From Oxalobacteraceae bacterium OTU3CAMAD1 (GTDB taxonomy: Bacteria; Pseudomonadota; Gammaproteobacteria; Burkholderiales; Burkholderiaceae_D), in NCBI GenBank assembly GCA_024123915.1, contig CP099650.1, positions 558,001 through 622,000 on the forward strand: DNA of 64,000 bases, given 5' to 3'. Position 1 is the first letter of the stretch. Every line of letters starts with the position of its first letter. Both the position numbers and the translations under genes were made by a program. The notes under the pieces are model-generated. The model saw nothing but the letters and a program-made list of their open reading frames with translations. It made no database searches and was not told where the DNA came from. This document shows positions 27,886-56,623 of this stretch, in pieces.

Positions 27886-27961
27886 GCGGCTGTAGCTCAG
27901 TGGATAGAGTATTGGCCTCCGAAGCCAAGGGTCGTGGGTTCGATCCCCGCCAGCCGCACCA
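27886..27961 (+). tRNA. tRNA-Arg(CCG)
   Basis: A 76-nt cloverleaf. The acceptor stem GCGGCTG / CAGCCGC, the D arm, and the anticodon stem TTGGC / GCCAA with loop CTCCGAA (anticodon CCG, reading CGG) are all present. The T arm GTGGG-TTCGATC-CCCGC and an encoded 3' CCA complete it. Its 3' half is repeated at 56575, so this gene is the insertion site of the genomic island and remains intact at the left end. Confidence 0.96.
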
Positions 27962-27962
27962 G
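27914..27962. repeat. attL core (49-bp direct repeat)
   Basis: From the anticodon stem of tRNA-Arg to one base past CCA. It is identical to 56575-56623. Insertion restored an intact tRNA on this side. Confidence 0.9.
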
Positions 27963-28794
27963 TTTTTCCCATAAAATCAAGAGGTTAGCCATTGCAAGAC
28001 AATGCAATGTTTAGCGATATTATGCGTGGGTTGGCACACTGGCTGTGCCAAATTTGTGCCGTGTTTTTGTTGCATAGGAACATCAGCTTCCCGTCCTCGG
28101 ATAATGCCAAGCAGTTCAGAACATTTTCACAGGGGTGTGAGACTTTTTGAAGTAGATGCGACGCAAAGTGCAGCAGTTCCGGCCGCCGCCCATCTCGTTC
28201 TGCTAATGGCTGCGACAATTTTCGCTGAATAGTTGCGACTAAACCCGAGGGATGTCGAAATGGCTGCGGGTAACTTCGTCCTTGACCTGACGTCCGAATT
28301 AATGCCGCCGCAGATCCAGGGATCTGGGACCGGCTGCTTCCGCACCCGAAGCGGACCTTTATAAGTACGGCATTGGGGTGAGCCCGAATCAACCGGAAAC
28401 GCTGAGGCATCGATAAGTGTACGCGGTGGTTTTTGGCGAGCCGTTGGCGCGAATTGAAGGCTGTTTGTCCTGGGACCGAAGATGTTGCCGGGTAAGCTAG
28501 ACGCATCACCTTGCCAGGATGCCTACTATGCCCAGATACCCATCCACCGCAGCGCAGATGTCGCCGCCTGAGCGCCCAGTCTTGCCGACTCGACAGGATG
28601 ACGTCGGCCGTCCCCAGGCCTATCGCTGTGGATGTTGCATGCCGCGCGGCGACTATCTCGCGCTGTTGGCGTTACACGACAAGAACATGCGCCGCGTCCG
28701 CGCGAAAGCCGGCGCCGCGTCCGAATGGACCGTGCCGGGGCCGCTGACCAATTCCTTAACATGGACTTGCGCAGCCCATCGGTGGAGCACTCAC
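27963..28794. other. Left-end island region without a confident gene
   Basis: About 830 bases in which the longest frames (e.g. 27985-28509 minus) look non-coding, with frequent Cys/His/Ser-rich translations. It holds a putative integrase arm site at 28044. An in-frame extension of the amidohydrolase begins at 28519, but it lacks family similarity. Base composition is more AT-rich near the tRNA, as at decayed insertion ends. Confidence 0.4.
28044..28060. promoter_or_regulatory. Putative integrase arm-type site, left
   Basis: TGTGCCAAATTTGTGCC, containing two TGTGCC repeats; an inverted TTGGCACA lies just before it at ~28031. The same 17 bases occur at 56508, just inside the right end. Repeats flanking an att core in this way are typical arm sites of tyrosine integrases. 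Confidence 0.5.
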
Positions 28795-30465
28795 ATGCCG
28801 GCCCTGGCTGGGGGTAGTGGGGCTGCGGGTCACATGGCGTCCTCGTCCACCGGTGCTGTGCCTGCAGCGGGCCTGCGGCGGCGCACGGCTGACCTGACGG
28901 CCGCGCCTGGAGGGGTCGAGCGGGTGTTTGTGGGCGGTCGCATCTTCACCGCCAACCGCGACCACCTGTGGGCCGAGGCGTTGGCGGTTGATCAAGGCTG
29001 CATCGCCGCTGTCGGCGACCGTGCCGCTATCGAAAAGCTCATCGGCAGGGATACCGAGGTCTTCGAGCTGGACGGGCGGCTCGTCATTCCCGGCTTCAAC
29101 GACGCGCACATGCACCACACACCCGACCCGTGCGGGATACGCTTGCCGAGCGACCCGATCGCCGACACCGGGTTCCACGAGCTCGGGGCGATGATCCAGA
29201 CGGCGGTCCAGTCGTGCGACCCTGGCACTTGGATTTATGGCGTTATGGGCATGCGCTTGCTCGTCGATCGGGCTGTCAATCGCGACAACCTCGATCTGCT
29301 CGCGCCGCACCATCCGTTGATCCTGCTGGGCTTCACCAACCATACCAACGTCTTGAACAGCGAGGCGTTGCGTCGCCTTGGGATCGCGGACGACACCCCC
29401 GATCCAATCGGCGGCTACTACGAGCGCGTTCCCGGCTCGGCTCGGCTGTCGGGGCGTATCAACGAATATGCCCAGTGGGGGCCGCAACGCAGCTTCGCCT
29501 CGATGGCTAGCGTGGACGAGGGCGTCGCCAGTCTGCGTTCGTTGTCGGAGGAATGCGTCCAATGGGGCATCACCAGCATTCAGAACATGTCTTGGACGCC
29601 GGCGGAACGCTACCTGGAGATGCTGCGCTCGGCGGACCTGCCGATCAAGGTTCGCGTCATCCGCTTCCCGTCGTCTGGGCCGGCGGGCCGTCTCGTCAGC
29701 GAGGGCAGAGGTCTTCCAAAGGCTGTTGGCGCGCGTATCCGCGTTGACGGCACCAAATGGATCCTTGACGGCACGCCGGTCGAGCGCGGCGCCGCCCTGG
29801 GCCGGCCGTATGGCGACGATCCGGCCACCTGTGGTCGTGAGAACTTCTCCGCCGCCGAGGTCCGCGAGATGTTGCGCGAAAACTTGGCGCTGGGCGAGCC
29901 ATTGCTGTTACATGCCATTGGCTGGCGTACCCTGGAGACCGTGCTCGATTCTGTCGAGTCCTTCGGGCCGGAGATTGACTGGCGCGCTGCCGGCTTGCGT
30001 ATCGAGCACGGCGATGGTTTGAGTCCGTCGCAAATCGGTCGTGTCAAGGCGCTGGGACTGGTCGTGACGCAGAATCCTACGCATTTCCTGCTGCCGCAAG
30101 CCTATGGTCCGCGTTTCGGCGCGGCCGCCCCGTATGCCGCCTTTCGCTCGCTGTTCGATGCGGGCGTGCCGATGGCGATCGGCTCGGACGGGCCGCTGAA
30201 TCCTTTTCTCGGCTTGTTCGCCGCGATCGTCCATCCAAGCCGTCCCGAGGAAGCTGCGACCCTTGAGGAGGCGCTGATCGCTTACACCTACGGCAGTGCG
30301 GTGGCCGAGGGCCAAGGCGAGCGCAAAGGCCGCCTGAGGCCCGGCGCGGCGGCCGATCTGGCCGTGTTGTCGCAAGACATTTTCACGCTGCCGCCGCAGG
30401 CACTTGCAGCCACGTGCAGCTTGCTGACCATGGTGAACGGAGCTGTTGTGTATGAGGCCCGCTGA
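28795..30465 (+). CDS. YtcJ-like metal-dependent amidohydrolase
   Basis: The 556-residue protein is of the amidohydrolase superfamily (YtcJ branch). RVFVGGRIFTANRDHLWAEALAV is the N-terminal beta-sandwich strand, PGFNDAHMHH carries the first metal-binding His pair, and IEHGDG and GSDGPLNPF carry later ligands. ATG 28795 follows GGAG at 7 bases and gives the usual length; the open frame upstream to 28519 has no family similarity. The substrate is unknown: the branch includes formamide- and hydantoin-like hydrolases. It lies 51 bases before the chemoreceptor gene. Confidence 0.82.
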   Translation: MPALAGGSGAAGHMASSSTGAVPAAGLRRRTADLTAAPGGVERVFVGGRIFTANRDHLWAEALAVDQGCIAAVGDRAAIEKLIGRDTEVFELDGRLVIPGFNDAHMHHTPDPCGIRLPSDPIADTGFHELGAMIQTAVQSCDPGTWIYGVMGMRLLVDRAVNRDNLDLLAPHHPLILLGFTNHTNVLNSEALRRLGIADDTPDPIGGYYERVPGSARLSGRINEYAQWGPQRSFASMASVDEGVASLRSLSEECVQWGITSIQNMSWTPAERYLEMLRSADLPIKVRVIRFPSSGPAGRLVSEGRGLPKAVGARIRVDGTKWILDGTPVERGAALGRPYGDDPATCGRENFSAAEVREMLRENLALGEPLLLHAIGWRTLETVLDSVESFGPEIDWRAAGLRIEHGDGLSPSQIGRVKALGLVVTQNPTHFLLPQAYGPRFGAAAPYAAFRSLFDAGVPMAIGSDGPLNPFLGLFAAIVHPSRPEEAATLEEALIAYTYGSAVAEGQGERKGRLRPGAAADLAVLSQDIFTLPPQALAATCSLLTMVNGAVVYEAR

Positions 30466-30516
30466 CCAGTCGCGTTTTCCTTCTTTTTGCACTCGATATT
30501 TGACGAAAGTAAAGCC

Positions 30517-31719
30517 ATGCTGACCGCAATCTATAGGACGCTCAATAGTTGGTCCATGTTGACGAAGATGATCATCCTGGTCGTCATCGGGGCCACATCG
30601 TCGACCGTACTGGGCATCAGTGGCATTGTGGGCAGCCGGCATGTCATGGTCGCCGCCGGCTTGGCGCAGAACCAGCCGTCCGCCTGCGGGGGTATAACAG
30701 TATGCTTGCGCAGCATCGACCTCAAGGCCCGCCAGATCCAGACGGTGGCGGTCGTCGTCACGCTGCTCACCGTGGCAATCCTGCCAGGCGGATTTTTGCT
30801 CGTCACACTGTCGGTGGTGTCGCGGGTGCGCCGCGCCGAGCAGGCAGCCACGCGCATCGCGCAGCGCCATCTGTCTGACGCGGTGGCCATCGAAGGGAGC
30901 GACGAAATGGGGCGCCTCCTATTCGCGCTGGAGAACATGCGGTGCTCACTGGGCGACACGGTGCGCGACGTTCGTCTGGCAACCGAGGCGGTCGCCGATG
31001 CCAGTGCCGACATTGCCGCCGCCAACGGTGATCTGTCGCTCCGAACCGAGGATCAGGCGCTGCGCGTACGGCAGACCGTTGGCGCGGTGGGACAGCTTAG
31101 TGATGCCGTGCGCGCCAGCCTCGAGAATACTTGCCAAGCCGCCCGCTTGTCCGAAAGCGCGAGTGCCGTGTGCGATGCAGGGGACCGCGCGATGGGGCAG
31201 GTCATCGAACGCATGCAAAGCATCGGCGCGAGTTCCAAAAAAATTTCAGACATAATCGGCGTCATTGATGGCATCGCTTTCCAGACCAACATCCTGGCGT
31301 TGAACGCGGCGGTCGAAGCCGCACGCGCCGGCGACGCTGGACGCGGCTTCGCCGTCGTCGCCAGCGAGGTGCGTGGTCTTGCCCACCGCACCGCAACTGC
31401 CGCACGGGAGGTAACGGCGCTCATCGGCGACGCCGCAGCGCAGGTCGAGCATGGGACGGCGCTGGTTGGCGACGCCGGCCGCACCATGGCCGATATCAAA
31501 AATTCTGTTTCCCAAGTCAATAACATCATTGGCGAGATCAGTCGCGCCAACGCCGACCAAGGCGCGCGCATCACCGAGATCGACGCCGCCACCGGCGGCC
31601 TGGACGCTGCCACGCAGGGCAATGCGGCGATGGTCGAACAATGCGCTGCCGCCACCGTCAGTTTGCGCGATATGGCTGGTTCGCTGCGCCGTTCGGTTGG
31701 ACAGTTTAAGCTCGGCTAG
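30517..31719 (+). CDS. Methyl-accepting chemotaxis protein with a very short periplasmic domain
   Basis: This 400-residue receptor has TM1 at ~12-33 and TM2 at ~72-97, leaving only ~35-40 periplasmic residues where related receptors have ~150. A HAMP segment (~98-145) follows. The conserved signalling tip is intact ([46 protein letters not shown]). It probably signals either without direct ligand binding or through a partner. On the island it follows the amidohydrolase and may give taxis toward the island's substrate. Confidence 0.85.
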
Positions 31720-31745: not shown

Positions 31746-32759
31746 TTAAGGCGCGCCCGCCGCAGCGTTCTTGCGATACTGTTCCGGGCTCATGCCGCAG
31801 TAGCGCAGGAAGCTGCGGCGCAGGTTTTGCTCATCTCCGAAGCCGCAGGTGCGCGCAATCTGTTTGGCGCTCGCGTTCGTATCGGCCATCGCGCGCAGCG
31901 CGGCCTCCATGCGTAGCATGTAAATCGCTTTGGCCGGGGTTGTCCCCGTTTGTTCTGCGTAGCGCCGTGAAAACGTTCTTGGCGTCATGCCGACCTGCGC
32001 GGCCAGCACTTCGACCGAAAGATCGTCGGAGAGACGCTCCATCGCCCACGCGTGCAGCCGGCTGAATTGCCGGTCGGCGGTCGATTGCGTCGACAGCGCG
32101 GCCGACACCTGTGCCTGCTCGCCGCCCCGTTTGACGAACACCACGATCGATCTCGCCGCCTCCATCGCGGCCGCATAGCCTTCGTCGTCCTCCAAAATGG
32201 CCAGCGCCAAGTCCAACGCCGCCGTAAACCCTCCCGACGTCCACAGCCCGCCATCGCGCAGATAGACTCGGTCGGGATCGATCCGCAAGCCCGGGTAGCG
32301 TCTGGTGAGCATATCGGTCGACTGCCAATGCGTGGTGACCTTGCGCTGCCCGATGAGGCCGGCCTCGGCCAAAAGGAAGGTGCCGGTGCAAATGCCGCAC
32401 AAGCGTCTGGCGCGGTGTCCTTCACGGGCCAACCAATCGATCAGATCAGCGGGCATTGGTGGATCGTGCGGCGGGCCGCCGCCGGGGACGACCAGGGTGT
32501 CGATGGTGTCGAGGTCGATCGACGACAGGGCGGTGGTTTCGATGACGATGCCAGAGAAGGTCCGGATCGGCAGACCGGCGACCGAGGCGACGATGACCCG
32601 GTAGCCGGCGCTGCCGGGCGGGCGTATGAAGCGCGTCGCCACAGCGAACACGTCGGCCACGCCGCAGACGTCGGACACGGTCACTTCGTCGAAGGCGATG
32701 ATAACGACGGTGCGCGGCACGCCGGGTGGCGCGGTGTGGAAGTCGCTGGAGGTGGCCAT
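31746..32759 (-). CDS. GlxA-type AraC regulator with DJ-1/PfpI domain
   Basis: The 337-residue regulator has an N-terminal DJ-1/PfpI-like domain (~15-185; VVPGGGPPHDPP, and the elbow Cys in LCGICTGTFLLAEAG). A C-terminal AraC double helix-turn-helix follows (~220-330; SVEVLAAQVGMTPRTFSRRYAEQTGTTPAKAI). It is divergent from the aldehyde dehydrogenase operon across 227 bases containing an 8-bp dyad, so it probably regulates that operon. The effector is unknown. Confidence 0.88.
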   Translation of the reverse strand: MATSSDFHTAPPGVPRTVVIIAFDEVTVSDVCGVADVFAVATRFIRPPGSAGYRVIVASVAGLPIRTFSGIVIETTALSSIDLDTIDTLVVPGGGPPHDPPMPADLIDWLAREGHRARRLCGICTGTFLLAEAGLIGQRKVTTHWQSTDMLTRRYPGLRIDPDRVYLRDGGLWTSGGFTAALDLALAILEDDEGYAAAMEAARSIVVFVKRGGEQAQVSAALSTQSTADRQFSRLHAWAMERLSDDLSVEVLAAQVGMTPRTFSRRYAEQTGTTPAKAIYMLRMEAALRAMADTNASAKQIARTCGFGDEQNLRRSFLRYCGMSPEQYRKNAAAGAP

Positions 32760-32858: not shown

Positions 32859-32986
32859 ACCGGTTGCCGTCAAGTTCCGATGCTAACCTCGCCTTTCATC
32901 GTTGCACTTTGCAAGCCCTGCGGCTCTCCGCCAAGGCGATAGATGGACTTTTTCACCAGCGGCGCGAGCGCCAGGGAAACATTGAA

Positions 32987-34417
32987 ATGAAGATATTTTG
33001 CAACACTGTGAACGGGGAGCCGGTGAGTTCGCCGACCACTTTCGGATCGGTCAATCCGGCCACGGGGCAGGAGCTGGGCAGGGTGCCGGCGTCGACGCCG
33101 GAGCAGGTGGACGCTGCGGTTGAGGCCGCAAGAGCGGCCCAGCCGGCTTGGGCGGCCCTGCCGGACGGCCGGCGCCGCGAACTGATGATGGCAGTGGCCG
33201 ATGTGCTGCGGGACAATGCCGATCTGCTGGCCGATTACGTCACGCGGGAGCAAGGCAAACCGCTCGGTGGCCTCGGGCCGGGCCAGGTGCCCGGATCGCG
33301 CTTCGAGCTGTGGGGGTGTGAGACGTGGACCCGGGTGCCGGCCGGCCTCGAGGTGCCGGTGGAGGTGGTGTTCGAGGACGACACACGGCGCGACGAGCTG
33401 CACCGCCGACCCTACGGCGTGGTCGCGGCCATCGCCCCGTGGAACTGGCCGTTGCTGATCGCTGTCTGGCAAATCATTCCGGCGCTGCGCGCGGGTAATA
33501 CCGTCGTGCTCAAGCCGTCCGAGTACACCAGTATCTGCACCCTGGAAATGGTGCGCTTGATCGCCGCCGTGTTGCCGCCGGGCGTGCTCAACACCGTGAG
33601 CGGCGACGGGGCCGTGGGCGCGACATTGGTGAACAACCCGCAGATCGACAAGATCACCTTCACCGGTTCGAGCGCGACGGGGGCCAAGATCAGCGCTCTG
33701 GCGGCGCGCCACCTGACGCCGACGACGATGGAGCTGGGCGGCAACGACGCCGGCATCGTGCTGGCTGACGCCGACCCCAAGGCCATCGCCATGGGCCTGT
33801 TCTGGGGCGCCTTCCTCAACATGGGCCAAACCTGCGCGGCCCTCAAACGCCTGTATGTGCACGCCAGCGTGCACGACGCCGTGGTCGGCGAACTGGCTGA
33901 CCTGGCACGCGCGATGCCGATGGGTGACGGCCTGCTGCCAGACGTGGTGGTTGGTCCGATCCAGAACCGTATGCAATACGACAAGGTCGAGCGCCTGCTC
34001 GCTGCGGCCGTGCGCGGCGGCGCGCGCGTGGTGTGCGGCGGCGAATCGCCCGGTGGTCCCGGCAACTTCTTCCCGTTGACCCTGGTGACCGACATCGCCG
34101 ACGGCGCCGCACTGGTCGACGAGGAACAGTTCGGCCCTGTGTTGCCAATCATTCGCTATACCGACATCGACGACGCGGTGCGCTCGGCCAATGGGCTGGC
34201 AGTCGGGTTGGCTGCCTCGGTGTGGAGCGCCGACGTTGCCGCTGCCAAGGCGGTGGCGCTGCGACTCGAGGCCGGCACCGTGTGGATAAACCAGCACGGC
34301 ATGGTCCATCCCATGGTGCCTTTCGGCGGTAGCAAGCGTTCCGGCTGGGGCACGCAATTCGGCCTGGACGGTCTCAAGGCGGTCACCCAGGCGCAAATCA
34401 TCAGTTTGCCGAAATAA
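32987..34417 (+). CDS. Aldehyde dehydrogenase (NAD(P)+-dependent)
   Basis: This 476-residue cytoplasmic ALDH has PWNWPLL and KPSEYTS (cofactor binding), FTGSSATGAKI, general-base Glu in MELGGNDAG and catalytic Cys in MGQTCAALKR. The ATG at 32987 was chosen because the protein then starts at the normal ALDH N-terminus (MKIFCNTVNGE); the frame is open to 32864. It is first in an operon with the fused hydrolase, the DJ-1 protein and the outer-membrane protein. The aldehyde is unknown. Confidence 0.9.
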   Translation: MKIFCNTVNGEPVSSPTTFGSVNPATGQELGRVPASTPEQVDAAVEAARAAQPAWAALPDGRRRELMMAVADVLRDNADLLADYVTREQGKPLGGLGPGQVPGSRFELWGCETWTRVPAGLEVPVEVVFEDDTRRDELHRRPYGVVAAIAPWNWPLLIAVWQIIPALRAGNTVVLKPSEYTSICTLEMVRLIAAVLPPGVLNTVSGDGAVGATLVNNPQIDKITFTGSSATGAKISALAARHLTPTTMELGGNDAGIVLADADPKAIAMGLFWGAFLNMGQTCAALKRLYVHASVHDAVVGELADLARAMPMGDGLLPDVVVGPIQNRMQYDKVERLLAAAVRGGARVVCGGESPGGPGNFFPLTLVTDIADGAALVDEEQFGPVLPIIRYTDIDDAVRSANGLAVGLAASVWSADVAAAKAVALRLEAGTVWINQHGMVHPMVPFGGSKRSGWGTQFGLDGLKAVTQAQIISLPK

Positions 34418-34477: not shown

Positions 34478-35719
34478 ATGCAACACATTTTCATCGAACT
34501 CTGGAAATTCAAAGACAGCTGGCACCAGCTCGGTGTCGAGGGCCGGGCGGCTTATGTCGAGAAGCTGGTGCCCGCCGTGCAGGGTATGCTGGCCGCCGGT
34601 GTCGAAATCGTCTCTTGGGGGTATAACGAGCAGGGCGTCGACCAGCGGGTCGACTACGACGTGTTCGCCGTGTACCGCCTGCCCAACCGGGCGCTGTACG
34701 AGCAATTGCAAAGCTCCATTAGGGCCTCGGGCTGGTATGAGTATTTTCATCATGTGAACGCGGGAGGCGTCGCGATGAGCCCGCAGGCCATCTTGGGCGA
34801 GCACATCGCGCTGGCGCCGCCGTCAACCTTCAGCGAGGACATCGGCGTTGCCATGACCGGCGAGCGCCACACCATCGAGGTGAACGGGCTCAACATGAGC
34901 GTCGCCGTGCAAGGCCGGGGACGACCGATCGTGTTCTTGCATGGCGACATAGGTCAGGCCTATATGTGGCGCAATGTCATGCCTTATGCTGCCAGCCACG
35001 GCCAAGCCATCGGTGTCGATCTGATCGGCATGGGCGCATCGGCCAAGCTGCCCGATTCGCGCGACGGCGCCTACTCGTTCGACACCCATTATCGCTATCT
35101 GGAGCAACTGCTCGCGCAGATGGGGGTGACCAAGGACGTGGTTTTCGTGACCCATGACTGGGGATCGAATCTGGCGTTCGAGTGGGCCATGAACCATCCC
35201 GGCGCTGTCGCGGGCATCGCCTACTGCGAGCCGGTAACGCCGCCGTTCGATTGGAGCGACTGGACGCCGATGATCGAGCCGCTGTTCCGGGGACTGCAAT
35301 CCGAACAGGGCGAAGCCATGCAGCTTGCTAACAATGCGTTTGTCGAGGCGCTGCCGATGGGCGTGCTGCGCACGCTCGCGCCGGCCGAACTGGCAGCGTG
35401 GCGCCGTCCCTTCGAACAAGCCGGCGAAGACCGACGCCCGGCGCTCGACTGGCCGCGCCAAGTGCCGCTTGGCGGTGCCCGGCCCGACGTGCGCGAACGC
35501 GTGGAAGCGCATAGCGCGTGGATGGCGCGTAGCAGTATTCCCAAGCTGTTTATGCGCGGCGAGCCGGGTGCGCTCACCTTCGGCAAACGCCTGGAAGCGT
35601 TACGCCAGTGGAAAGAACAGAAGGAAGTCGCGGTGCGTGGCGTGCACTGGCTGCCGGAGGACGACCCGCACGCCATGGGCCGGGCGTTGAACGACTGGCT
35701 CGGCACGCTCGGTCGTTAG
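34478..35719 (+). CDS. Fusion: small DUF6616-like domain + haloalkane-dehalogenase-like hydrolase
   Basis: This 413-residue protein has two parts. Residues 1-112 (MQHIFIELWKFKDSWHQL through AMSPQAILGEHI) resemble a family of ~110-residue stand-alone proteins of unknown function (DUF6616, recalled). Residues ~125-413 are an alpha/beta hydrolase of haloalkane dehalogenase type. Nucleophile Asp227 and halide Trp228 lie in VTHDWGSNLAF, MWRNVMP is kept, and His390 lies in GVHWLPEDDP. The usual halide-binding Asn of HGNP is Asp157 (HGDI), so the reaction may not be dehalogenation. The frame is continuous. Confidence 0.78.
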   Translation: MQHIFIELWKFKDSWHQLGVEGRAAYVEKLVPAVQGMLAAGVEIVSWGYNEQGVDQRVDYDVFAVYRLPNRALYEQLQSSIRASGWYEYFHHVNAGGVAMSPQAILGEHIALAPPSTFSEDIGVAMTGERHTIEVNGLNMSVAVQGRGRPIVFLHGDIGQAYMWRNVMPYAASHGQAIGVDLIGMGASAKLPDSRDGAYSFDTHYRYLEQLLAQMGVTKDVVFVTHDWGSNLAFEWAMNHPGAVAGIAYCEPVTPPFDWSDWTPMIEPLFRGLQSEQGEAMQLANNAFVEALPMGVLRTLAPAELAAWRRPFEQAGEDRRPALDWPRQVPLGGARPDVRERVEAHSAWMARSSIPKLFMRGEPGALTFGKRLEALRQWKEQKEVAVRGVHWLPEDDPHAMGRALNDWLGTLGR

Positions 35720-35810: not shown

Positions 35811-36491
35811 ATGAAGATACTTGCAACATTGTTTCCGCAGTTCACGGCGATCGACTTGATCGGTCCGACCAACTGCTGGATGTTTATTCCTGGCGTAGAG
35901 ATCCAGCTGGCGGCTGCGCGGCCCGGCCCGGTACGCACCGATATCGGGCTCGATATCGTGGCGACGCATGACTTTGACAGTTGTTTCCAGCAACCCGACG
36001 TGCTGTTGGTGCCGGGCGGCGGCGGCGGCGTGTTCCGCGCACTCCAGGACGACCAGTTTCTCGACCACCTCGCCCGCCTGGGCAAGGACGCGGGCTGGGT
36101 CACCAGCGTGTGTAACGGCTCGCTGCTGCTCGGGGCCGCAGGATTGTTGCGCGGCTACCAGGCCGCTTGTTACTGGTATTCGCGCGAATACCTGCGCCGC
36201 TTCGGCGCCGAGCCGGTCGACAAGCGCACGGTCATCGACCGCAACCGGGCTACCGGCGGCGGCATGACGGCCGGCATCGACTTCGGCTTGGAAATGATGG
36301 GCCTGTGGGGGGGCACGGCGGCCGGCCAATTGACCGAATTGAGCATGGAGTATGCGCCCCGTCCACCTTTCGGTACCGGCTTGCCTGAACTGGCGCCGCC
36401 CGAGATCCTGGCGCGGGCACGCGCGATCCTGGACATCGAAATGCCCAATGCATTGGTCGACCAAGCCGCTATCCGGCGTGGATTCATATAA
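35811..36491 (+). CDS. DJ-1/PfpI family protein (isonitrile hydratase-like)
   Basis: The 226-residue protein has the DJ-1 fold with the nucleophile elbow Cys in TSVCNGSLLLGAAGLL (~residue 103), following VLLVPGGGGG. This pattern is close to the isonitrile hydratase (InhA) branch and to the sensing domain of GlxA regulators. Its substrate is not known here. It is third in the aldehyde dehydrogenase operon; a GC hairpin follows before the next gene. Confidence 0.82.
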   Translation: MKILATLFPQFTAIDLIGPTNCWMFIPGVEIQLAAARPGPVRTDIGLDIVATHDFDSCFQQPDVLLVPGGGGGVFRALQDDQFLDHLARLGKDAGWVTSVCNGSLLLGAAGLLRGYQAACYWYSREYLRRFGAEPVDKRTVIDRNRATGGGMTAGIDFGLEMMGLWGGTAAGQLTELSMEYAPRPPFGTGLPELAPPEILARARAILDIEMPNALVDQAAIRRGFI

Positions 36492-43678: not shown

Positions 43679-43699
43679 AGCATGGATTTTGGCGGGAAG

Positions 43700-46240: not shown

Positions 46241-46269
46241 TTGAAGCGCATCGGCGTCCTCCCTACACT
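46241..46269 (+). promoter_or_regulatory. Predicted sigma-70 promoter of the iacA operon
   Basis: TTGAAG-N17-TACACT, 43 bases before the iacA ATG, with optimal spacing. Confidence 0.55.
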
Positions 46270-46312
46270 GGCATCAGCCGTCCGCGCCACGCCACATAAT
46301 CAGGAGACCACC

Positions 46313-47511: not shown

Positions 47512-47874
47512 ATGACCGACACCCGAAAAGATCCGCTGCGCGTTTTATTCTGCATCGGCGTCACGCAAAACTTCTTCGATCTGCCGGAAACCGATATCGG
47601 CGCCGTATGGAAGGGCTACGGCGAGATGATGAGCGCGATGAACGTCATGCCCGGCGTGACCATCCTCGGCACCATGGACGATGATCGCACGATGGTCGGC
47701 GCGTCCGAATCCTGGCCGTGGACCGTCTACATCATGGCCGATGTGGCTGATCTCGACACCGTCGTCGCCGCATGCAACCTGTTCCGTACCGTGAAGGTGG
47801 GCGATTATCGCCTCTGGAAGTTCGGCAAGATCGAAGCGCGCATCGGCCGCGCCCTGATCATCCAGGGAGGCTAG
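47512..47874 (+). CDS. iacB: IacB, small conserved protein of iac clusters
   Basis: This 120-residue soluble protein has no recognised catalytic motif. It is placed directly after iacA as in other iac loci, and its size and start (LRVLFCIGVTQNFFDLPETDIGAVWKGYGEMM) agree with IacB. Fold pattern suggests a ferredoxin-like alpha-beta barrel. Its role in the pathway is not established. Confidence 0.75.
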   Translation: MTDTRKDPLRVLFCIGVTQNFFDLPETDIGAVWKGYGEMMSAMNVMPGVTILGTMDDDRTMVGASESWPWTVYIMADVADLDTVVAACNLFRTVKVGDYRLWKFGKIEARIGRALIIQGG

Positions 47875-48635: not shown

Positions 48636-49040
48636 ATGCCAACCATCCACGCCTTCATCATGGCCGGTCATCCGCATGGACCGAAGCAGCGCCTGATCGC
48701 CGCGCTGACCGAAGCCGTCGTCGACTCGGTCGAGGCGCCACCGGCGTCGGTGTGCGTGATGCTGACCGAAGTGCAGCACGAGCATTACGCGGTGGCCGGC
48801 AAGCCGGCGCCGGGACCGCGCGCGGTGTTGCAGGCCTTCCTCATCGCCGGGCGCAGCGACGCGCAGAAAGCGAAGCTGATCGCGCGTCTGACGGCGGCCA
48901 CCGCCTCCATCGGCGTCGCCCCTGAAGTGGTGCGGGTGTTCATCCAGGACCTGCCCAACAGCGACTTCGGGCTCGGCGGCGTGACGGCGGCGGCGCTCGG
49001 ACGCGGCATCGACCGCGCCGCCTTGTTGAACCAGCATTGA
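48636..49040 (+). CDS. Tandem-domain tautomerase-superfamily protein
   Basis: The 134-residue protein has two ~60-residue tautomerase-like halves in one chain (PTIHAFIMAGHPHGPKQRLIAALTEAV and AVLQAFLIAGRSDAQKAKLIARLT). The first half keeps Pro after the initiator Met, the usual catalytic base; the second lacks an equivalent because it is internal. It lies 11 bases after iacE and 11 before catR. It may isomerise a keto/enol intermediate; the substrate is unknown. Confidence 0.78.
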   Translation: MPTIHAFIMAGHPHGPKQRLIAALTEAVVDSVEAPPASVCVMLTEVQHEHYAVAGKPAPGPRAVLQAFLIAGRSDAQKAKLIARLTAATASIGVAPEVVRVFIQDLPNSDFGLGGVTAAALGRGIDRAALLNQH

Positions 49041-49051
49041 CGGGAGTGGCC

Positions 49052-50017
49052 ATGGAACTGCGGCATCTGAAATACTTTCACGCGGTCGCCGAGACGCTCA
49101 GTTTCAGCCGCGCCGCCGAACGGCTGCACATCGCGCAGCCGCCATTGAGCCGGCAGATCCGCCAGCTTGAGGAGCTGCTCGGTGTCGAATTGGTCGACCG
49201 CGACTCACGCCCCATCGCACTGACGGTGGCCGGCAAATTTTTCTACGAGCAGACTTGGCAAGTGATGTCGCGCTTGCGCGAGATCGAGGACGGCACGCGC
49301 CTACTGGCGCGCGGCCAGCGCGTCTGGTTCGGCGTCGGTTTCGTACCGTCGGTGATGTGCGGCTTGCTGCCGGACCTAATACGCCAGTTCCGCGCCGCCG
49401 AGCCGGAGGTGGAAACCGGCTTCACCGAGTTGTTGACGGCGGAGCAGGGGGCCGCGCTCAAGCTGGGGCGCATCGACGTCGGTTTCGGCCGCCTGCCGAT
49501 CGACGATCCCGACATCACCTGCGTCACGCTGCTGCGCGAGCCGCTGTTGGCGGCGCTGCCGGCGTCCCACCCGTTGGCCGAGAGGATGGCGGTGCGCCTT
49601 GCCGATCTGGGGCGTCAGGCGCTGGTCGTCTATCCGGCCCGTCCCCGTCCGGGCTACGCCGACCAGGTGCTGGAGCTGTTCGCGCGCCACCGCGTTCGCC
49701 CGGCCGAGGTGCGCGAGGCCAACGAGATGCAGACCGCGCTGGGGTTGGTCGATGCTGGCATTGGCGTGGCGCTGGTGCCGGCGTCCGTCGCCCATGGCCG
49801 CCGTGGCAGCGTGGTGTTCCGTCCCGTGCTGGAGGCCGATGCCATCTCGCCCGTCATCATGAATTTCCGCCGTGGCGACGAGGGGCTAGTCCTGGCGCGT
49901 TTTCGGACGATGGCAGCGGAACTCCTATCTGAACAAGCGATCAATGTTGCAGAAATGCATGCCGCAAGTGCGCAACCCCCGCCGCAAAAGCGGGCGAGCC
50001 CGTTGGTAGCCGTTTGA
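49052..50017 (+). CDS. CatR-like LysR regulator of catechol degradation
   Basis: The 321-residue protein opens with MELRHLKYFHAVAETLSFSRAAERLHIAQPPLSRQIRQLEELLG, the near-invariant start of the CatR/BenM/CatM group that senses cis,cis-muconate. ATG 49052 follows GGGAG. Unusually it is not divergent from catB. It reads the same way and lies at the end of the iacA transcript, so its dosage should rise with iac expression. Its likely operator is at 50155. Confidence 0.88.
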   Translation: MELRHLKYFHAVAETLSFSRAAERLHIAQPPLSRQIRQLEELLGVELVDRDSRPIALTVAGKFFYEQTWQVMSRLREIEDGTRLLARGQRVWFGVGFVPSVMCGLLPDLIRQFRAAEPEVETGFTELLTAEQGAALKLGRIDVGFGRLPIDDPDITCVTLLREPLLAALPASHPLAERMAVRLADLGRQALVVYPARPRPGYADQVLELFARHRVRPAEVREANEMQTALGLVDAGIGVALVPASVAHGRRGSVVFRPVLEADAISPVIMNFRRGDEGLVLARFRTMAAELLSEQAINVAEMHAASAQPPPQKRASPLVAV

Positions 50018-50243: not shown

Positions 50244-51386
50244 ATGAGCCATACCAACATCGGGATCGCCAGCGTCGACGTGCTGCTGCTCGACCTGCCC
50301 ACCATCCGCCCGCATCAGCTGTCGGTCGCCACGATGCGGCGCCAGAAGCTGGTTTTGGTGCGCATCCGCGCCGAAGACGGTGTCACCGGCTGGGGTGAGG
50401 CTACCACCATCGGCGGCCTGGCCTACGGCGAGGAGAGCCCGGACAGCATCTGCGTCAACATCGAAACCTATATGCGACCTTTGCTGACCGGTGCCGACGC
50501 CACCAGTCCCAACGCGCGCATGCGCGACTTGCGCGACAGCCTTCAGGGCAACCGCTTCGCCCTGTGCGCCATCGAAACCGCGCTGCTGGACGGCCAGGCT
50601 CGGCGCCTCGGCGTGCCGCTGTCGGACTTGTTCGGCGGGCGCGTACGCGATAGCTTGCCGGTGGCGTGGACCCTGGCCAGCGGCGACACCGGACGCGACA
50701 TCGCCGAAGCCGAGGAGATGCTCGACCGCCGCCGCCACAACGTCTTCAAGCTCAAGATCGGCGCGCGCGAGGTGCGCGCCGACGCCGCCCACGTCGCGGC
50801 GATCAAGCGTGCGCTGGGCGACCGCGCCAGCGTGCGCGTCGACATCAACCAGGCCTGGAGCCAGACCGACGCCATGCTGGGCATGAGCCTGCTAGAGCAC
50901 GCCGGCGTTGATCTGGTCGAGCAGCCGATCGCCGCGCACGACCACGAGGGCATGCGCCGCCTGCGCGACATGAACCGGGTGCCTTTGATGGCCGACGAGG
51001 CGTTGCACGGTCCATTGGATGCCTTCCGCATCGCCGAGCGACGCGCCGCCGACGTCTACGCCGTCAAGATCACCCAGTCTGGCGGCTTGCGTGCCGCGCA
51101 GCAGGTGGCGGCCATCGCGGAGGCGGCTAACATCGGCTTGTACGGCGGCACCATGCTGGAGGGAGCGGTCGGAACCGTCGCCTCGGCGCAGCTGTTCGCC
51201 ACTTTCCCGGATCTGGCGTGGGGCACTGAGCTGTTTGGACCGCTGCTGCTGACCGAGGACATTCTGCGCACGCCGCTGGTTTACCAGGATTTCGCGCTCC
51301 GCCTGCCGTCCGGCCCGGGCCTGGGTATCGACATCGACGAAGAAAAGTTGCAATTCCTGCAGCGCCAGTACAACACTAACCATTGA
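50244..51386 (+). CDS. catB: Muconate cycloisomerase
   Basis: The 380-residue enolase-superfamily enzyme converts cis,cis-muconate to muconolactone with Mn2+. KLKIG carries the catalytic Lys pair. Metal ligands lie in VRVDINQAW, LVEQP and MADEAL; KITQSGG carries the second Lys. AAGGAG precedes the ATG. It is first of the operon catB-catC-catA-enol-lactonase-MFS-porin. Confidence 0.93.
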   Translation: MSHTNIGIASVDVLLLDLPTIRPHQLSVATMRRQKLVLVRIRAEDGVTGWGEATTIGGLAYGEESPDSICVNIETYMRPLLTGADATSPNARMRDLRDSLQGNRFALCAIETALLDGQARRLGVPLSDLFGGRVRDSLPVAWTLASGDTGRDIAEAEEMLDRRRHNVFKLKIGAREVRADAAHVAAIKRALGDRASVRVDINQAWSQTDAMLGMSLLEHAGVDLVEQPIAAHDHEGMRRLRDMNRVPLMADEALHGPLDAFRIAERRAADVYAVKITQSGGLRAAQQVAAIAEAANIGLYGGTMLEGAVGTVASAQLFATFPDLAWGTELFGPLLLTEDILRTPLVYQDFALRLPSGPGLGIDIDEEKLQFLQRQYNTNH

Positions 51387-51402: not shown

Positions 51403-51693
51403 ATGCTGTTCAAAGTAAGCATGACCGTCCGACTGCCGCATGCGATGCCGGCCGACGAAGCGGCCCGCCTCAAGGCAACCGAACGTGAAGTAGCGCAGGG
51501 CCTGCAACGCAGCGGCAAATGGCGCCACCTGTGGCGCGTGGCCGGCCAGTATGCCAACGTCAGCGTGTTCGACGTCGACAGCCCGGCGGAGCTGCACGAT
51601 TTGCTGGGAACACTGCCGCTGTTCCCCTACATGGAGATCGGGGTCGAGGCGCTGTGCCGCCATCCTTCCTCGATCCACGAAGACGACCGCTAA
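51403..51693 (+). CDS. catC: Muconolactone Delta-isomerase
   Basis: The 96-residue protein of the small decameric isomerase family turns muconolactone into beta-ketoadipate enol-lactone. MLFKVSMTVRLPHAMPADEAARLKATEREVAQGLQRSGKWRHLWRVAGQYAN is the typical N-terminal two-thirds. Length is normal. It lies 16 bases after catB. Confidence 0.93.
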   Translation: MLFKVSMTVRLPHAMPADEAARLKATEREVAQGLQRSGKWRHLWRVAGQYANVSVFDVDSPAELHDLLGTLPLFPYMEIGVEALCRHPSSIHEDDR

Positions 51694-51723: not shown

Positions 51724-52635
51724 ATGGACAAGAACGCCATCGACGCGCTGCTGCGCAAAATCGAAAGCACCGAAAAGGACCACGGCAACCTGCGGGTGCA
51801 GACCATCGTCAACCGCATTGTGCGCGACCTGTTCGCTACCATCGAGGAGCACGACGTTCAGCCGCACGAATTCTGGAGCGCGATCAGTTATCTGACAGAG
51901 GCGGGCAAATCGGGCGAATACGGCCTGATCGCCGCCGGCCTGGGGCTGGAGCACTTCCTCGACCTGCGCATGGACGAACAGGAGGCGCGCCAGGGCGTCA
52001 GCGGCGGCACGCCGCGCACCATCGAAGGGCCGCTGTACGTGGCCGGCGCGCCGGAGACCAATGGCCTGGCGCGGCTCGACGTCGACGAGCAGCCGGGCGA
52101 GGTGCTGTTCATGCAGGGGCAGGTGCGCGGCGCCGACGGCAAACCGCTGGCCGGAGCACTGGTCGAGGTCTGGCACGCCAATCACCTTGGCCGCTATTCC
52201 TTCTTCGACCCGAGTCAAAGTGCCTACAACCTGCGCCGCGCCATCCGCACCGACGCCGACGGCCGCTATCGCCTGCGCAGCCGGGTGCCGGTCGGCTACA
52301 GCGTGCCGCCGGACGGCGCCACCGAGAAGTTGCTCAAGGCGCTGGGACGTCACGGCACGCGTCCGGCCCACATCCACTTCTTCGTCACTGCGGTGGACCA
52401 CCGCAAGCTGACAACTCAGATCAACATTGATGGCGACCCCTACCTCTGGGACGATTTCGCTTTCGCCACGCGCGAGGGACTGGTGCCGGCGATGACCAAG
52501 GTCACCGACCCGGCGGAGTTGCGCAGCCACGAGGTGGAACAGCCGTTCTATTCGATCGACTTCGACTTTGACCTGCACGCGCAACGCGATGGCCTGCCGG
52601 CGGACCAGATCGAGCGCGTCCACTTCGTCGCCTGA
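51724..52635 (+). CDS. catA: Catechol 1,2-dioxygenase
   Basis: The 303-residue intradiol dioxygenase opens the ring of catechol to cis,cis-muconate with non-haem Fe(III). Ligand regions are visible: Tyr in GPLYVAGAP, Tyr in GRYSFFDPSQSAYNLRR, and the two His in RPAHIHFFV. An N-terminal helical dimer domain (~1-100) is present. It accepts the catechol made by IacCDF. The ATG follows a short 30-base gap after catC. Confidence 0.94.
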   Translation: MDKNAIDALLRKIESTEKDHGNLRVQTIVNRIVRDLFATIEEHDVQPHEFWSAISYLTEAGKSGEYGLIAAGLGLEHFLDLRMDEQEARQGVSGGTPRTIEGPLYVAGAPETNGLARLDVDEQPGEVLFMQGQVRGADGKPLAGALVEVWHANHLGRYSFFDPSQSAYNLRRAIRTDADGRYRLRSRVPVGYSVPPDGATEKLLKALGRHGTRPAHIHFFVTAVDHRKLTTQINIDGDPYLWDDFAFATREGLVPAMTKVTDPAELRSHEVEQPFYSIDFDFDLHAQRDGLPADQIERVHFVA

Positions 52636-52646: not shown

Positions 52647-53435
52647 ATGCCGATACTCGATTTCGGCGATCGCCAGATCGCCTATACGCTGCAAGGACCC
52701 GCCACGGCACCGGTGCTAGTGCTGTCCAATTCCCTCGGTACCACGATGTCGATGTGGGACGCGCAAGCCGACGCGCTGGCGCCAGACTACCGCGTGCTGC
52801 GCTACGACACGCGCGGCCACGGCGGCTCGGGTATAGGCGCCGATCCAGCCGGCGGCTATACGCTCGCGGAGCTGGGCGGAGATGTCCTGCGGCTGCTGGA
52901 TGGCCTGGCGATCGGCCGCGCGCACTTTTGCGGCATTTCCATGGGTGGGCTGACCGGCCTGTGGCTAGGCGTGCACGCCGGCGACCGTCTGCACAAGCTG
53001 GTGGTCGCCAACAGCGCGGCGCGCATCGGCGCCACACAGGTATGGCGCGAGCGCGCCGCGCTGGTGCGCTCGTCCGGCATGGACCAGGTGGCCGATGGCG
53101 CTGCGGGACGCTGGTTCACGCCGGGCTACGCGGCCGGGGCGCCGCGAGTCGTCGCTGGGCTGGTCGAAGGCTTGCGCCGCACCACGCCCGCCGGCTACGC
53201 GGCCTGCTGCCTGGCGCTGGCGGCGGCCGACTTGTCCGACCAGATCGAAGCGATCGGCACGGCCACCTTGCTGGTGGCGGGCGCCGGCGATCCAGTGACA
53301 ACCGTCGCCGACGCCGACTTCCTGCGCAAGCGTATCCCCGGGGCCGCCATGGTCACGTTGCAAGCCTCGCACCTGTCGAACATTGAGGCTGCGGACGCCT
53401 TCACCAATGCGCTGCACGCCTTCCTGGATCGATAG
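52647..53435 (+). CDS. catD: 3-oxoadipate enol-lactonase
   Basis: The 262-residue alpha/beta hydrolase hydrolyses beta-ketoadipate enol-lactone, the last step shown here. It has nucleophile Ser in CGISMGG, the oxyanion strand LSNSLGTTMSMWDAQ, Asp in VAGAGDPVT and His in ASHLSNIE. The symbol catD/pcaD depends on cluster; catD is used because it follows catBCA. The CoA-transfer and thiolase steps (pcaIJ, pcaF) are not in the window. Confidence 0.9.
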   Translation: MPILDFGDRQIAYTLQGPATAPVLVLSNSLGTTMSMWDAQADALAPDYRVLRYDTRGHGGSGIGADPAGGYTLAELGGDVLRLLDGLAIGRAHFCGISMGGLTGLWLGVHAGDRLHKLVVANSAARIGATQVWRERAALVRSSGMDQVADGAAGRWFTPGYAAGAPRVVAGLVEGLRRTTPAGYAACCLALAAADLSDQIEAIGTATLLVAGAGDPVTTVADADFLRKRIPGAAMVTLQASHLSNIEAADAFTNALHAFLDR

Positions 53436-53485: not shown

Positions 53486-54814
53486 ATGGATCAAGTCCTC
53501 ATCGAAACGGCGGCCAGCCGGCCTGCGACCGCCCGCGACAACGACCACGCGCTATACCGCAAGGTCACTTTGCGCATCGTTCCCTTCCTCTTCATCTGCT
53601 ATGTGGTCTCTTTCCTCGATCGCATCAACATCGGCTTCGCCCAGCTTCAACTGAAGCACGACCTGGGCTTCAGCGACGCCATGTACGGCCTTGGCGCGGC
53701 GGTGTTTTACATCGGCTACGTGCTGTTCGAAGTGCCGAGCAATCTGCTGCTGGCGCGGTTCGGCGCGCGCAAGACCTTCGTGCGCATCATGCTGCTCTGG
53801 GGCGCGGCCTCGGTTGGCATGATGTTCATCTCGACGCCGACGCAGTTTTATCTGCTGCGCTTCGCGCTGGGCGTGTTCGAAGCCGGCTTCTTCCCCGGCA
53901 TCGTGCTTTATCTGACCTATTGGTATCCGCCGCTGCGGCGCGCCTCGGTCCTGTCATACTTCTTCGCCGGGGTTGCGGTCGCCGGCATCGTGGGCGGCTT
54001 GGTCTCGGGATGGATACTGCGCGATCTGGACGGCGTGATGGGCCTCAAGGGCTGGCAATGGATGTTCTTCCTTGAGGGCTCGCCGGCGCTGCTGCTGGCG
54101 GTGATCGCGCACCGCTGGCTGAGCGACTATCCGGAGGATGCCGTCTGGCTGTCCCAGTCCGAGAAAGCGCGTCTGGCGGCCAATCTGGACCACGGCGGCA
54201 GGGCGGCCCATCGCGGCGGCGCCACGCTGGCGGCGTGCCTGCGAGACCCGCGCATTTATCTGTTCTCGCTGCCGTATTTCGCCGTCACCGGCGCGGCGCT
54301 GACCTTGAGCTTCTGGATGCCGCTGATGATACGGGATTTCGGTGTCAAGGACGTGGTGCTGGTCAGCCTGTATTCCGTGATTCCCTACACCATAGGCGCG
54401 ATCGGCGTGCTGCTGCTGGCGCGCAGCGCGGACCGCGACGGCCGCCATGCGCGCTACTTTGCCGGCTGCGTGGTCGCCGGCGCGCTGGCGTTGGCCGCGC
54501 TGACCACGCACCCGACAAACCTGGCGCTGGCGCTGGGATTGTTGTCGGTGGCGGCGGTGGGGCTGTATTCGGCATTGCCGATCTTCTGGGCCATTCCGAC
54601 GGCGCACCTACCGCCCGACATGCGTGCCGGTGGCATAGGACTTATCAGCAGTCTTGGCACCAGCGCAGGCATCGCCGCGCCATGGGCCATCGGCCGTATT
54701 AAGACAGCTACGGGCAGCATGGACCTGGCGCTGCTGGGATTGGGCGTGCTGCTGGTTCTCAGCGCCGTGGTTTTGATGGCGGCGGGCCGCCGCGCGCGCA
54801 AGGGGACCGTATGA
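53486..54814 (+). CDS. MFS transporter, anion:cation symporter (ACS) family
   Basis: The 442-residue permease has twelve hydrophobic segments. The N-terminal motif (RIVPFLFICYVVSFLDRINIGFAQLQLKHDLGFSDAMYGLGAAVFYIGYVLFEVPSNLLL) marks proton-coupled importers of organic anions such as hydroxybenzoates and phthalate. Uptake of indole-3-acetate or another aromatic acid is likely from context. It overlaps the porin gene by 4 bases. Confidence 0.85.
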   Translation: MDQVLIETAASRPATARDNDHALYRKVTLRIVPFLFICYVVSFLDRINIGFAQLQLKHDLGFSDAMYGLGAAVFYIGYVLFEVPSNLLLARFGARKTFVRIMLLWGAASVGMMFISTPTQFYLLRFALGVFEAGFFPGIVLYLTYWYPPLRRASVLSYFFAGVAVAGIVGGLVSGWILRDLDGVMGLKGWQWMFFLEGSPALLLAVIAHRWLSDYPEDAVWLSQSEKARLAANLDHGGRAAHRGGATLAACLRDPRIYLFSLPYFAVTGAALTLSFWMPLMIRDFGVKDVVLVSLYSVIPYTIGAIGVLLLARSADRDGRHARYFAGCVVAGALALAALTTHPTNLALALGLLSVAAVGLYSALPIFWAIPTAHLPPDMRAGGIGLISSLGTSAGIAAPWAIGRIKTATGSMDLALLGLGVLLVLSAVVLMAAGRRARKGTV

Positions 54815-55833
54815 AGCAGTTCCCGATATTGGCGATGACGATGGCGATGGCTGCGGCGGTACCCGCGCATGGGCAAGACAGCGTCGCCATGTCCGGCATC
54901 CTCGACACTTACCTCGACGCCAGCCGCGCAGGCGACGCCCACGCGACACGCGTGCAAAGCGGCGGCATATCCGGTTCGCGCATCAGCTGGCGCGGCGGCG
55001 AGGACCTGGGTGGCGGCAACCGCGCGATCTTTCTGCTGGAGGCGGGCATCAACATGGACGATGGCAGCTCGGGACAGGGCGGTATCCTGTTCGGCCGCCA
55101 GGCATGGGTCGGGCTGGCCGGCCCGGCGGGGGAACTGACGCTAGGGCGCCAGTATTCGCCGAACTTCTACACCATCGTGACCTATGGCCTAGGCGGTGGT
55201 CTCGCATGGGGCAACGCGTCGAACTACTTCACGGACAATTCGCCGTTGCGCGTCAACAACGCCATCAGCTACGCGTCACCGTCGATGGCCGGTTTCAAGG
55301 TACGCGCCTTCATGACATTGGGTGAGAACACCACCCAGCCGGGCGGCACCAACATCGGCGCCATCCACAGCGGTTCGCTGCAGTACGACAGCGGCCCGCT
55401 ATCGGCCGGTATCGCCGTTGAATCGCGCAAGACGGCGCTCGCTAACACCGAGCGCTTTTACGCGGCCGGCGCCAGCTACCGCTTCACGGGCTTCAAGCTG
55501 GGCATTCTCGGCCAGGGACGGCGTGACGATATCGGCGCCACCGCCAGCGACGCCATCGAGCTCGGGGTGTCCATCCCGCTTGGAATGGGCTCGCTGTTGC
55601 TCGATGCCGGCCGTTTCCGACACCGGGATGTGACGGACGGCGACGCCACGGCGCTGAGCGTGCGCTACGACCATAATCTGTCGAAGCGTTCAATGATCTA
55701 CGTGGGCGCAGCGCAGATCCGCAACCAGGCACGCGCGCGGTTCGGCATCAACGGCAACACCGGTCCGGCTTTGGCGGTTTCGCCTGGCGCGGATCCACGC
55801 TCCGTGATCCTGGGCGTACGCCACCTCTTTTAA
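54811..55833 (+). CDS. Gram-negative general porin family protein
   Basis: The 340-residue outer-membrane protein has a signal peptide (~1-20, ending AHG). Sixteen-strand porin-type repeats follow (SVAMSGILDTYLDAS; GNRAIFLLEAGINMDDGSSGQGGILFGRQAWVGLAGPAGELTLGRQYSP) and it ends in RHLF. It is the last gene of the cat operon and presumably admits the aromatic acid through the outer membrane. Confidence 0.85.
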   Translation: MKQFPILAMTMAMAAAVPAHGQDSVAMSGILDTYLDASRAGDAHATRVQSGGISGSRISWRGGEDLGGGNRAIFLLEAGINMDDGSSGQGGILFGRQAWVGLAGPAGELTLGRQYSPNFYTIVTYGLGGGLAWGNASNYFTDNSPLRVNNAISYASPSMAGFKVRAFMTLGENTTQPGGTNIGAIHSGSLQYDSGPLSAGIAVESRKTALANTERFYAAGASYRFTGFKLGILGQGRRDDIGATASDAIELGVSIPLGMGSLLLDAGRFRHRDVTDGDATALSVRYDHNLSKRSMIYVGAAQIRNQARARFGINGNTGPALAVSPGADPRSVILGVRHLF

Positions 55834-56137: not shown

Positions 56138-56476
56138 TCAACAGAGCACGAAGCCGGATACCTGTGATGAAGTAAGGCTCGCCATGCGATAGTCCCCGAA
56201 TGCGTCGGCCAATGTCTTGATGCGGGATTTGTCGGATTGCTCGCTGCGTTTCGTTGGCAGCACTTCAGTTTCGAAGCGATCCAGCACGTCTTTGATGAGT
56301 GTTGCCTCGGCCTCGTTTCGTGACACGAACACGCCCCGGACCATTTCTGATTCAATGACCGTTGCCCACTCTTCGGCCGCAATCAGCGAAGTGAAGGTCT
56401 TCGTCTGGGTCGGATAGCCCCGCTTACGGATTTGCACGTGGTACTGCTTGTCGCCTTTTTTACGGATCGTTGGCAT
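56138..56476 (-). pseudogene. Tyrosine recombinase/integrase, N-terminal remnant
   Basis: About 112 residues remain. The start (MPTIRKKGDKQYHVQIRKRGYPTQTKTFTS) and the SAM-like core-binding segment (LIKDVLDRFETEVLPTKRSEQSDKSRIKTLADAFGDYRMASLTSSQVSGF) are those of phage-type integrases. The frame then ends at VLC, and the catalytic Arg-His-Arg-Tyr domain is missing. Its 5' end faces the right att repeat 99 bases away, the normal position for the gene that inserted the island. A non-functional integrase leaves the island locked. Confidence 0.8.
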
Positions 56477-56507
56477 AAAAGTCTGCTGCAAGTTCGGAAA
56501 GCAGCAG

Positions 56508-56524
56508 TGTGCCAAATTTGTGCC
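56508..56524. promoter_or_regulatory. Putative integrase arm-type site, right
   Basis: TGTGCCAAATTTGTGCC, identical and same-oriented to 28044-28060, 50 bases inside the right att core and just upstream of the integrase start. Confidence 0.5.
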
Positions 56525-56574
56525 AATAAATGGGAATTTTCTATGTACGCGAAGCGGCTGTTGATGCTATTTTG

Positions 56575-56623
56575 GGCCTCCGAAGCCAAGGGTCGTGGGT
56601 TCGATCCCCGCCAGCCGCACCAG
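56575..56623. repeat. attR core (49-bp direct repeat, tRNA-Arg 3' half)
   Basis: Identical to 27914-27962. The preceding ~21 bases begin with GCGGCTG, matching the acceptor strand of tRNA-Arg, but the D arm is absent, so no functional tRNA is formed. Confidence 0.9.

Follow-up and report, generated by a model that had tools for sequence, protein, structure and literature searches.

Structure and Gene Content of the Island

The window analyzed here is a stretch of 64 kb (bases 558001-622000) from the single 7.48-Mb contig of Oxalobacteraceae bacterium OTU3CAMAD1, coded G000 among the genomes compared, and it contains a genomic island in tRNA-Arg(CCG) with a predicted pathway for the degradation of the auxin indole-3-acetate (Table 1). 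This tRNA gene was the only one detected across the window by ARAGORN. Its final 48 bases, together with the 1 base that follows, are repeated exactly and in direct orientation with a spacing of 28,661 bp, and this 49-bp repeat is the second-longest exact direct repeat of the window, the longest (85 bp) lying between two duplicated peptidase genes. The sequence TGTGCCAAATTTGTGCC occurs twice in the window, both times on the + strand, once near each end of the island. Judging from the register that they keep with the core, these 17-bp sites are probably arm-binding sites of the integrase. The repeat with its spacing, the paired sites and an integrase remnant had been reported by the first-pass annotation of this DNA, and all were found as it described them.

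The integrase remnant is an open reading frame (ORF) of 112 aa, whose match to full-length relatives ends at residue 109 (position 56150), and the C-terminal part was not found anywhere in the window. When the remnant was searched against 74 genomes of the genus (E 1e-8), 16 were matched, including its own. Close full-length integrases are present in G054 (93% protein identity) and in G049, G087, G056 and G006 (72-79%), and the remaining ten matches are at most 46% identical. Six PF00589 genes lie elsewhere in the own genome, and no second relative of the N-terminal piece was detected there at E 1e-8. Since the integrase is cut after residue 109, beside the end of the cassette, and the remnant has no such relative, the island is probably immobile and fixed in place.

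At the left end, 27886-28160 matches the corresponding region of G018 with 86% identity, and the gap 28061-28540 has no second copy in the genome. Within the repeat-bounded island, the start of the catabolic cargo lies between 28160 and 28519 and its end between 56078 and 56150. The 30 bases past the right core are similar to what follows the tRNA in many relatives, which is how the former chromosomal side should look.

The cargo consists of a left block (28519-37477) and a cassette of iac, cat, transporter and porin genes (37678-55833). In the left block, a single ORF joins a DUF6616 domain to a LinB-like haloalkane dehalogenase that passes its NCBIfam cut-off. In the cassette, the iac and cat reading frames are present and open. 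Homologues of IacA, B, C, D, E, F, G, H and I are all found together, B and I being assigned by position, length and collinearity, and the catechol branch of the beta-ketoadipate pathway is represented by CatA, CatB, CatC and the enol-lactonase, all above the NCBIfam cut-offs. The Iac names given to the ORFs follow general usage and the nomenclature of PMC11676955. Most of the Iac proteins lie within about 30 residues of the Paraburkholderia xenovorans LB400 lengths given in the excerpted text of that paper, where IacI has 180 aa; the longest IacD ORF is 57 residues longer. A MarR-type IacR, which is usual but not universal, was not seen among the ORFs scanned, a part of the total; LysR-type and two-component genes are present, and excerpts of published work report such regulators in iac loci of Paraburkholderia phytofirmans PsJN and some Pseudomonas. 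The complete-looking set is predicted to convert indole-3-acetate to catechol and further to 3-oxoadipate, in agreement with the full iac and cat cargo claimed at first.

Table 1. Features of the tRNA-Arg(CCG) island and its borders, in window coordinates.
Feature	Position	Strand	Basis or remark
tRNA-Arg(CCG), intact copy; 3' part is the left core	27886..27961	+	ARAGORN
attL core, 49 bp	27914..27962	+	exact repeat
Left remnant of integrase element, GC 0.44		27963..28160		comparison with G018
Left putative arm-type site TGTGCCAAATTTGTGCC	28044..28060	+	130 bp from core start
Amidohydrolase family 3	28519..30465	+	Pfam PF07969, domain over residues 180-645; real start probably further in
Methyl-accepting chemotaxis protein	30487..31719	+	profile match
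AraC/GlxA-type regulator (DJ-1 + HTH)	31746..32759	-	profile match
Aldehyde dehydrogenase	32864..34417	+	under every NCBIfam cut-off shown
DUF6616 + haloalkane dehalogenase fusion	34478..35719	+	profile match
DJ-1/PfpI domain protein	35811..36491	+	matches sensor half only of AraC/GlxA regulators
Outer-membrane MetA-pathway-type protein	36551..37477	+	PF13557
FixJ/LuxR-type response regulator, left cassette end	37678..38337	-	collinear in Janthinobacterium and G342
Flavin reductase, IacG-like	38465..39010	+	profile match, collinearity
Ferredoxin reductase, IacF-like	39156..40112	-	profile match, collinearity
Ring-hydroxylating dioxygenase beta subunit, IacD-like	40119..40790	-	longest ORF; start probably internal
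Ring-hydroxylating dioxygenase alpha subunit, IacC-like	40619..41977	-	profile match, collinearity
Amidase, IacH-like	41902..43116	-	profile match, collinearity
IacI, 190 aa	43071..43643	-	position and length; no NCBIfam match
LysR-type regulator, candidate LysR-type IacR	43652..44623	+	profile match, collinearity
Sensor histidine kinase, IacS candidate	44605..46182	-	profile match, collinearity
IacA, flavin-dependent monooxygenase	46199..47485	+	profile match, collinearity
IacB	47512..47874	+	position and length; no Pfam or NCBIfam match
IacE, short-chain dehydrogenase	47878..48624	+	profile match, collinearity
Tautomerase-family protein	48636..49040	+	profile match
CatR/BenM-like LysR regulator	49037..50017	+	profile match
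CatB, muconate cycloisomerase	50244..51386	+	TIGR02534 above cut-off
CatC, muconolactone isomerase	51403..51693	+	TIGR03221 above cut-off
CatA, catechol 1,2-dioxygenase	51724..52635	+	TIGR02439 above cut-off
3-Oxoadipate enol-lactonase (PcaD/CatD)	52647..53435	+	TIGR02427 above cut-off
Major facilitator superfamily (MFS) transporter, HpaX-like, IacT candidate	53486..54814	+	profile match, collinearity
Porin, last cassette gene	54811..55833	+	in G342; not found in Janthinobacterium stretch
Tyrosine integrase, N-terminal 109 residues, then broken	56138..56476	-	homology to full-length integrases
Right putative arm-type site TGTGCCAAATTTGTGCC	56508..56524	+	67 bp before core
attR core, 49 bp	56575..56623	+	exact repeat
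Spacer resembling post-tRNA-Arg(CCG) sequence of many relatives	56624..56653		comparison with relatives

Integration Geometry and Empty Site in Relatives

The comparisons covered the 74 genus genomes and a family sample of 392 genomes, with one genome per species and many drafts; in G018 and G079, the sequence breaks off close to the site. In five genus genomes, a full-length integrase adjoins a second copy of the core, at 5.5 (G087), 7.8 (G056), 10.0 (G049), 13.9 (G006) and 15.4 kb (G054) from the core in the intact tRNA. The pattern TGTGCCAAANNTGTGCC gave 17 matches in 11 of the 74 genomes, all in register: 11 are placed 130-132 bp past the start of a core and the other 6 at 66-67 bp ahead of a second core, and the backward pattern used as a control gave 0 matches. 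The right-hand site was present in six genomes only, namely the own genome and the five with a close full-length integrase. In the family scan, the pattern occurred 36 times in 25 of the 392 genomes, with 28 of the 36 in register, of which 13 are genus matches already counted and 15 belong to other genera. These 15 come from ten genomes (G348, G184, G225, G384, G247, G109, G298, G121, G327, and G266) with offsets of 129-132 or 67 bp, once 78 bp, and a related integrase was found in the fetched stretch for nine of the ten, one of them matched only partly. Site-specific integration into tRNA-Arg(CCG), as proposed in the first-pass annotation, is thus supported by the conserved geometry of core, arm sites and integrase.

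An empty site is also available for comparison. The 48-base core, with at most three mismatches, was found in 62 of the 74 genus genomes, as one copy in 52 and two copies in 10; some of the 12 genomes without it have the tRNA with more mismatches. In G081, which is 92-93% identical on the left flank, a single tRNA-Arg(CCG) is followed by 257 bp and then by the homologue of window position 60333, with 60333-68281 matched at 90% and 69282-76205 at 94% (window coordinates extended past its end). The single tRNA predicted for relatives lacking the island was therefore seen, but the backbone resumes at 60333 and not directly after the right core at 56624. Relative to G081, the window holds the island plus about 3.7 kb on its right (roughly 56650-60332).

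Genes for a solute-binding protein and a GGDEF-EAL protein lie just right of the island (56703-60027) and are missing beside the tRNA in G081. Among the matches listed for 40 relatives, a full-length match over both genes was found only in G011, at a different place. This segment is possibly a second acquisition, or was deleted in G081. DNA after the tRNA is highly variable in general, with an alignment longer than 250 bp in only 9 of 171 pairs of fetched stretches from 19 relatives.

Two further repeats were noted in the flanks. A 26-bp repeat at 62431 and 62898, near a DUF4148 gene, probably reflects duplicated small genes, and G081 matches this stretch in swapped positions. The PepO-like peptidase genes at 14492-16534 and 16561-18762, which share exact repeats of up to 85 bp, stand in tandem and are probably a recent duplication.

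Other Islands in the Same tRNA

Ten other islands with two ends, five from the genus and five from other genera, span 5.5-16.2 kb and have a GC content of 0.46-0.54 in the nine measured, that is, all except G054. Their proteins were scanned in part, covering 20 of 61 by Pfam and 36 of 61 by PADLOC in the genus and 41 of 53 by Pfam in the other genera. The islands of G006, G049, G054, G056 and G087 have core, arm sites, integrase family and position in common with the window island, and they differ from it in being 5.5-15.4 kb long, in carrying filamentous-phage (G006), plasmid-like (G049, G054) or defense-type genes, and in showing no catabolic cluster among the proteins scanned. The G006 island encodes a filamentous-phage replication protein, a Zot-type ATPase, a secretin and a Fic protein; TrfA and TrbL were found in G049, TrbL and a Schlafen-type helicase in G054, and a secretin in G056. 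The 36 genus proteins examined by PADLOC gave PD-Lambda-2, Rmr and several candidate defense matches. Among the 41 proteins from the other genera were three secretins, one Zot, one plasmid replication protein, a resolvase, a Fic protein, a GmrSD restriction protein and a phage antirepressor.

As a separate observation, Phage_CRI, Zot and secretin give the G006 island (G006:C12:23000-40500) the look of a filamentous prophage, and its integrase, at tRNA-Arg(CCG), is of the tyrosine type.

Occurrence of the Catabolic Genes Elsewhere

Two other genera were found to have the cassette independently of the integrase element. In Janthinobacterium sp. PC23-8, DNA collinear with 37705-54815 is present at 83-86% identity, and in G342, which belongs to a third genus, DNA collinear with 37708-55806 at 74-79%. 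Compared with Janthinobacterium, eighteen cassette proteins show 76-96% identity; those matched in Pseudoduganella namucuonensis, of the same genus as the own genome, are 54-87% identical, with a porin-like match at 36%. A further 95 bp (55984-56078) match Janthinobacterium past its transporter at 74%, and the distance from their end to the integrase break is 72 bp. Janthinobacterium has the cassette and tRNA-Arg(CCG) on separate contigs, and no tRNA gene was found within the roughly 50 kb surrounding its cassette or within the 58 kb surrounding the G342 one. The left block is absent from both stretches, and the Janthinobacterium stretch has elsewhere in it an aldehyde dehydrogenase (37%) and a chemoreceptor (43%). 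In the 74 genus genomes, a search with 32864-37600 gave just two matches outside G000, both of them weak, at 66-67% over an aldehyde dehydrogenase stretch.

IacA was detected in 5 of the 74 genus genomes (E 1e-60) and in 22 of the 392 family genomes (E 1e-110), 17 of the latter in one genus (g43, presumably Herbaspirillum). This patchy distribution speaks for a transfer of the iac-cat cassette between genera. The proposal that the core might flank other iac clusters gave a negative answer wherever it could be checked. No core was present in the fetched stretches of the IacA genomes G061, G043 and G074, and the stretch available from G079 is a contig of only 4.4 kb. The exact 17-bp motif was found in G000 alone when the five IacA genus genomes were covered in full, and in 3 of the 22 IacA family genomes (G000, G121, and G298), lying elsewhere than IacA in G121 and G298. 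No other iac cluster was located between such sites among the genus and family genomes judged. These comparisons indicate transfer of the cassette between genera as a unit of its own, independent of the integrase module.

A plasmid origin was considered and rejected. A megablast search with 28000-52000 matched 27 of 72,556 plasmid records, none covering 80% of the query, and in the 15 of the 27 records listed, the longest pieces measure 1.0-1.6 kb at 74-78%, with shorter pieces at up to 87%.

Origin of the Island

Considering all the above results, we regard it as likely that the locus is a composite genomic island, in which a tyrosine-integrase element in tRNA-Arg(CCG) has an interior of catabolic DNA. 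Under this model, a small element, of a family present in several Oxalobacteraceae genera, would insert in the 3' half of tRNA-Arg(CCG), where its 48-49-bp core would recombine with the tRNA and rebuild it. Such an element would have been in, or have entered, the tRNA, and catabolic DNA of at least two parts would have replaced its interior, before or after integration. The interior of about 28 kb would thus combine the left block (chemoreceptor, aldehyde dehydrogenase, dehalogenase) with the 18-kb iac-cat-transporter-porin cassette, and the cut through the integrase beside the cassette end would probably have fixed the island. We favor this origin over a single step because the cassette and the integrase module are found apart from each other elsewhere and have different GC contents: the outermost island DNA has 0.44 (left) and 0.52 (right), compared with 0.644 and 0.66 in the cargo.

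Several observations weigh against this model. The inner junctions share nothing beyond the arm sites and short matches, with no other repeats, in a comparison that included no insertion-sequence library, and no trace of a capture mechanism was seen there. The GC content of the cargo is near that of the flanks (0.639 and 0.641), and hence GC alone is no mark of foreign DNA. The absence of catabolic operons from the ten other islands applies to proteins scanned in part, and the catabolic genes may already have been aboard the element at integration, with the integrase lost later. Finally, 8 of the 36 family matches of the motif (G169, G302, G356, G236, G116, and three in G245) have no core in the fetched stretch, some of these stretches being short, which counts against the specificity of the motif. 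Of the copies in G245, a small genome of another genus, two lie 277 bp from a contig end.

Among the alternatives, homologous or illegitimate recombination could have added the catabolic DNA to an integrated element, with only the ends moved by the integrase. This is a mechanism within the composite origin, so that the two overlap in probability, and taken for itself we think it rather unlikely: the repeat-free inner junctions and the flank-like GC of the cargo would suit it, but no other genome was found with the cargo beside such remnants, in a search that covered 32864-37600 and not 28519-32863. Less probable still is an element that integrated once with its whole catabolic load and whose integrase decayed afterwards. 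The single pair of identical cores and arm sites does enclose everything, and the remnant remains close in protein to the integrase of G054; against this stand the smaller size of the ten other islands, the low GC of the nine measured, their scanned proteins without catabolic operons, and the cassette without the element in two other genera. The earlier statement that auxin degradation was gained in one step is accordingly disfavored, given the separate occurrence of the two modules, their differing GC and the integrase broken at residue 109. That the 49-bp repeat is a chance or tRNA-duplication artifact unrelated to the cargo is hardly credible, since the variable DNA after the tRNA, also in relatives without this integrase, and the motif matches without an adjacent core are outweighed by the exact repeat, the fixed-register arm sites with integrase in five same-genus genomes and the empty site in G081.

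Returning to the composite origin, we tentatively suggest, as a possibility short of an even chance, that the integrase module, whose other known bearers carry filamentous-phage, plasmid-like and defense genes, served as a dock at which a preformed 18-kb auxin-catabolism cassette circulating among Oxalobacteraceae genera was captured. The tRNA-Arg(CCG) gene would then be an exchange point of phage-like and catabolic DNA.

Relation to Known Systems and Significance

Islands formed by tRNA-targeting tyrosine integrases have their core at the 3' end of the tRNA, regenerate the tRNA and carry the integrase beside one end. What sets the window island apart from the general case is a broken integrase, located at the end opposite the intact tRNA, and a catabolic cargo.

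An iac cluster in an island is already published. Laird and Leveau (PMC6624763) placed the iac cluster of Pseudomonas putida 1290 in a genomic island of about 30 kb predicted by IslandPick, which also has genes for further plant compounds, including phenylacetaldehyde. A LysR regulator, catR-catBCA, a chemoreceptor, an MFS transporter and a porin lie upstream of iac there, as similar genes accompany iac in the window, and the text leaves unstated whether the cat and chemoreceptor genes are inside the island. In contrast, the gene order is iacABCDEFG-R-HI, and a defined integration site, att repeats or an integrase are not in that text. According to the excerpted text of PMC11676955, PsJN and LB400 resemble the window island in having iac beside cat, a LysR-type IacR, MFS transporters and mostly similar protein lengths, but their clusters are split over two chromosomes, and island ends are not described in that excerpt. 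No description of this island or integrase site was found among the papers listed in a literature search, judged by title and beginning of abstract, with most subscription journals outside its scope.

The island offers a base-precise vehicle for acquiring auxin catabolism, in a family that includes many associates of soil and plants. Furthermore, it defines tRNA-Arg(CCG) as a recurrent integration site in Oxalobacteraceae, for which the diagnostic 17-bp motif TGTGCCAAAwTTGTGCC can be used to find more islands, and it shows relatives using the same tRNA slot for quite different DNA.

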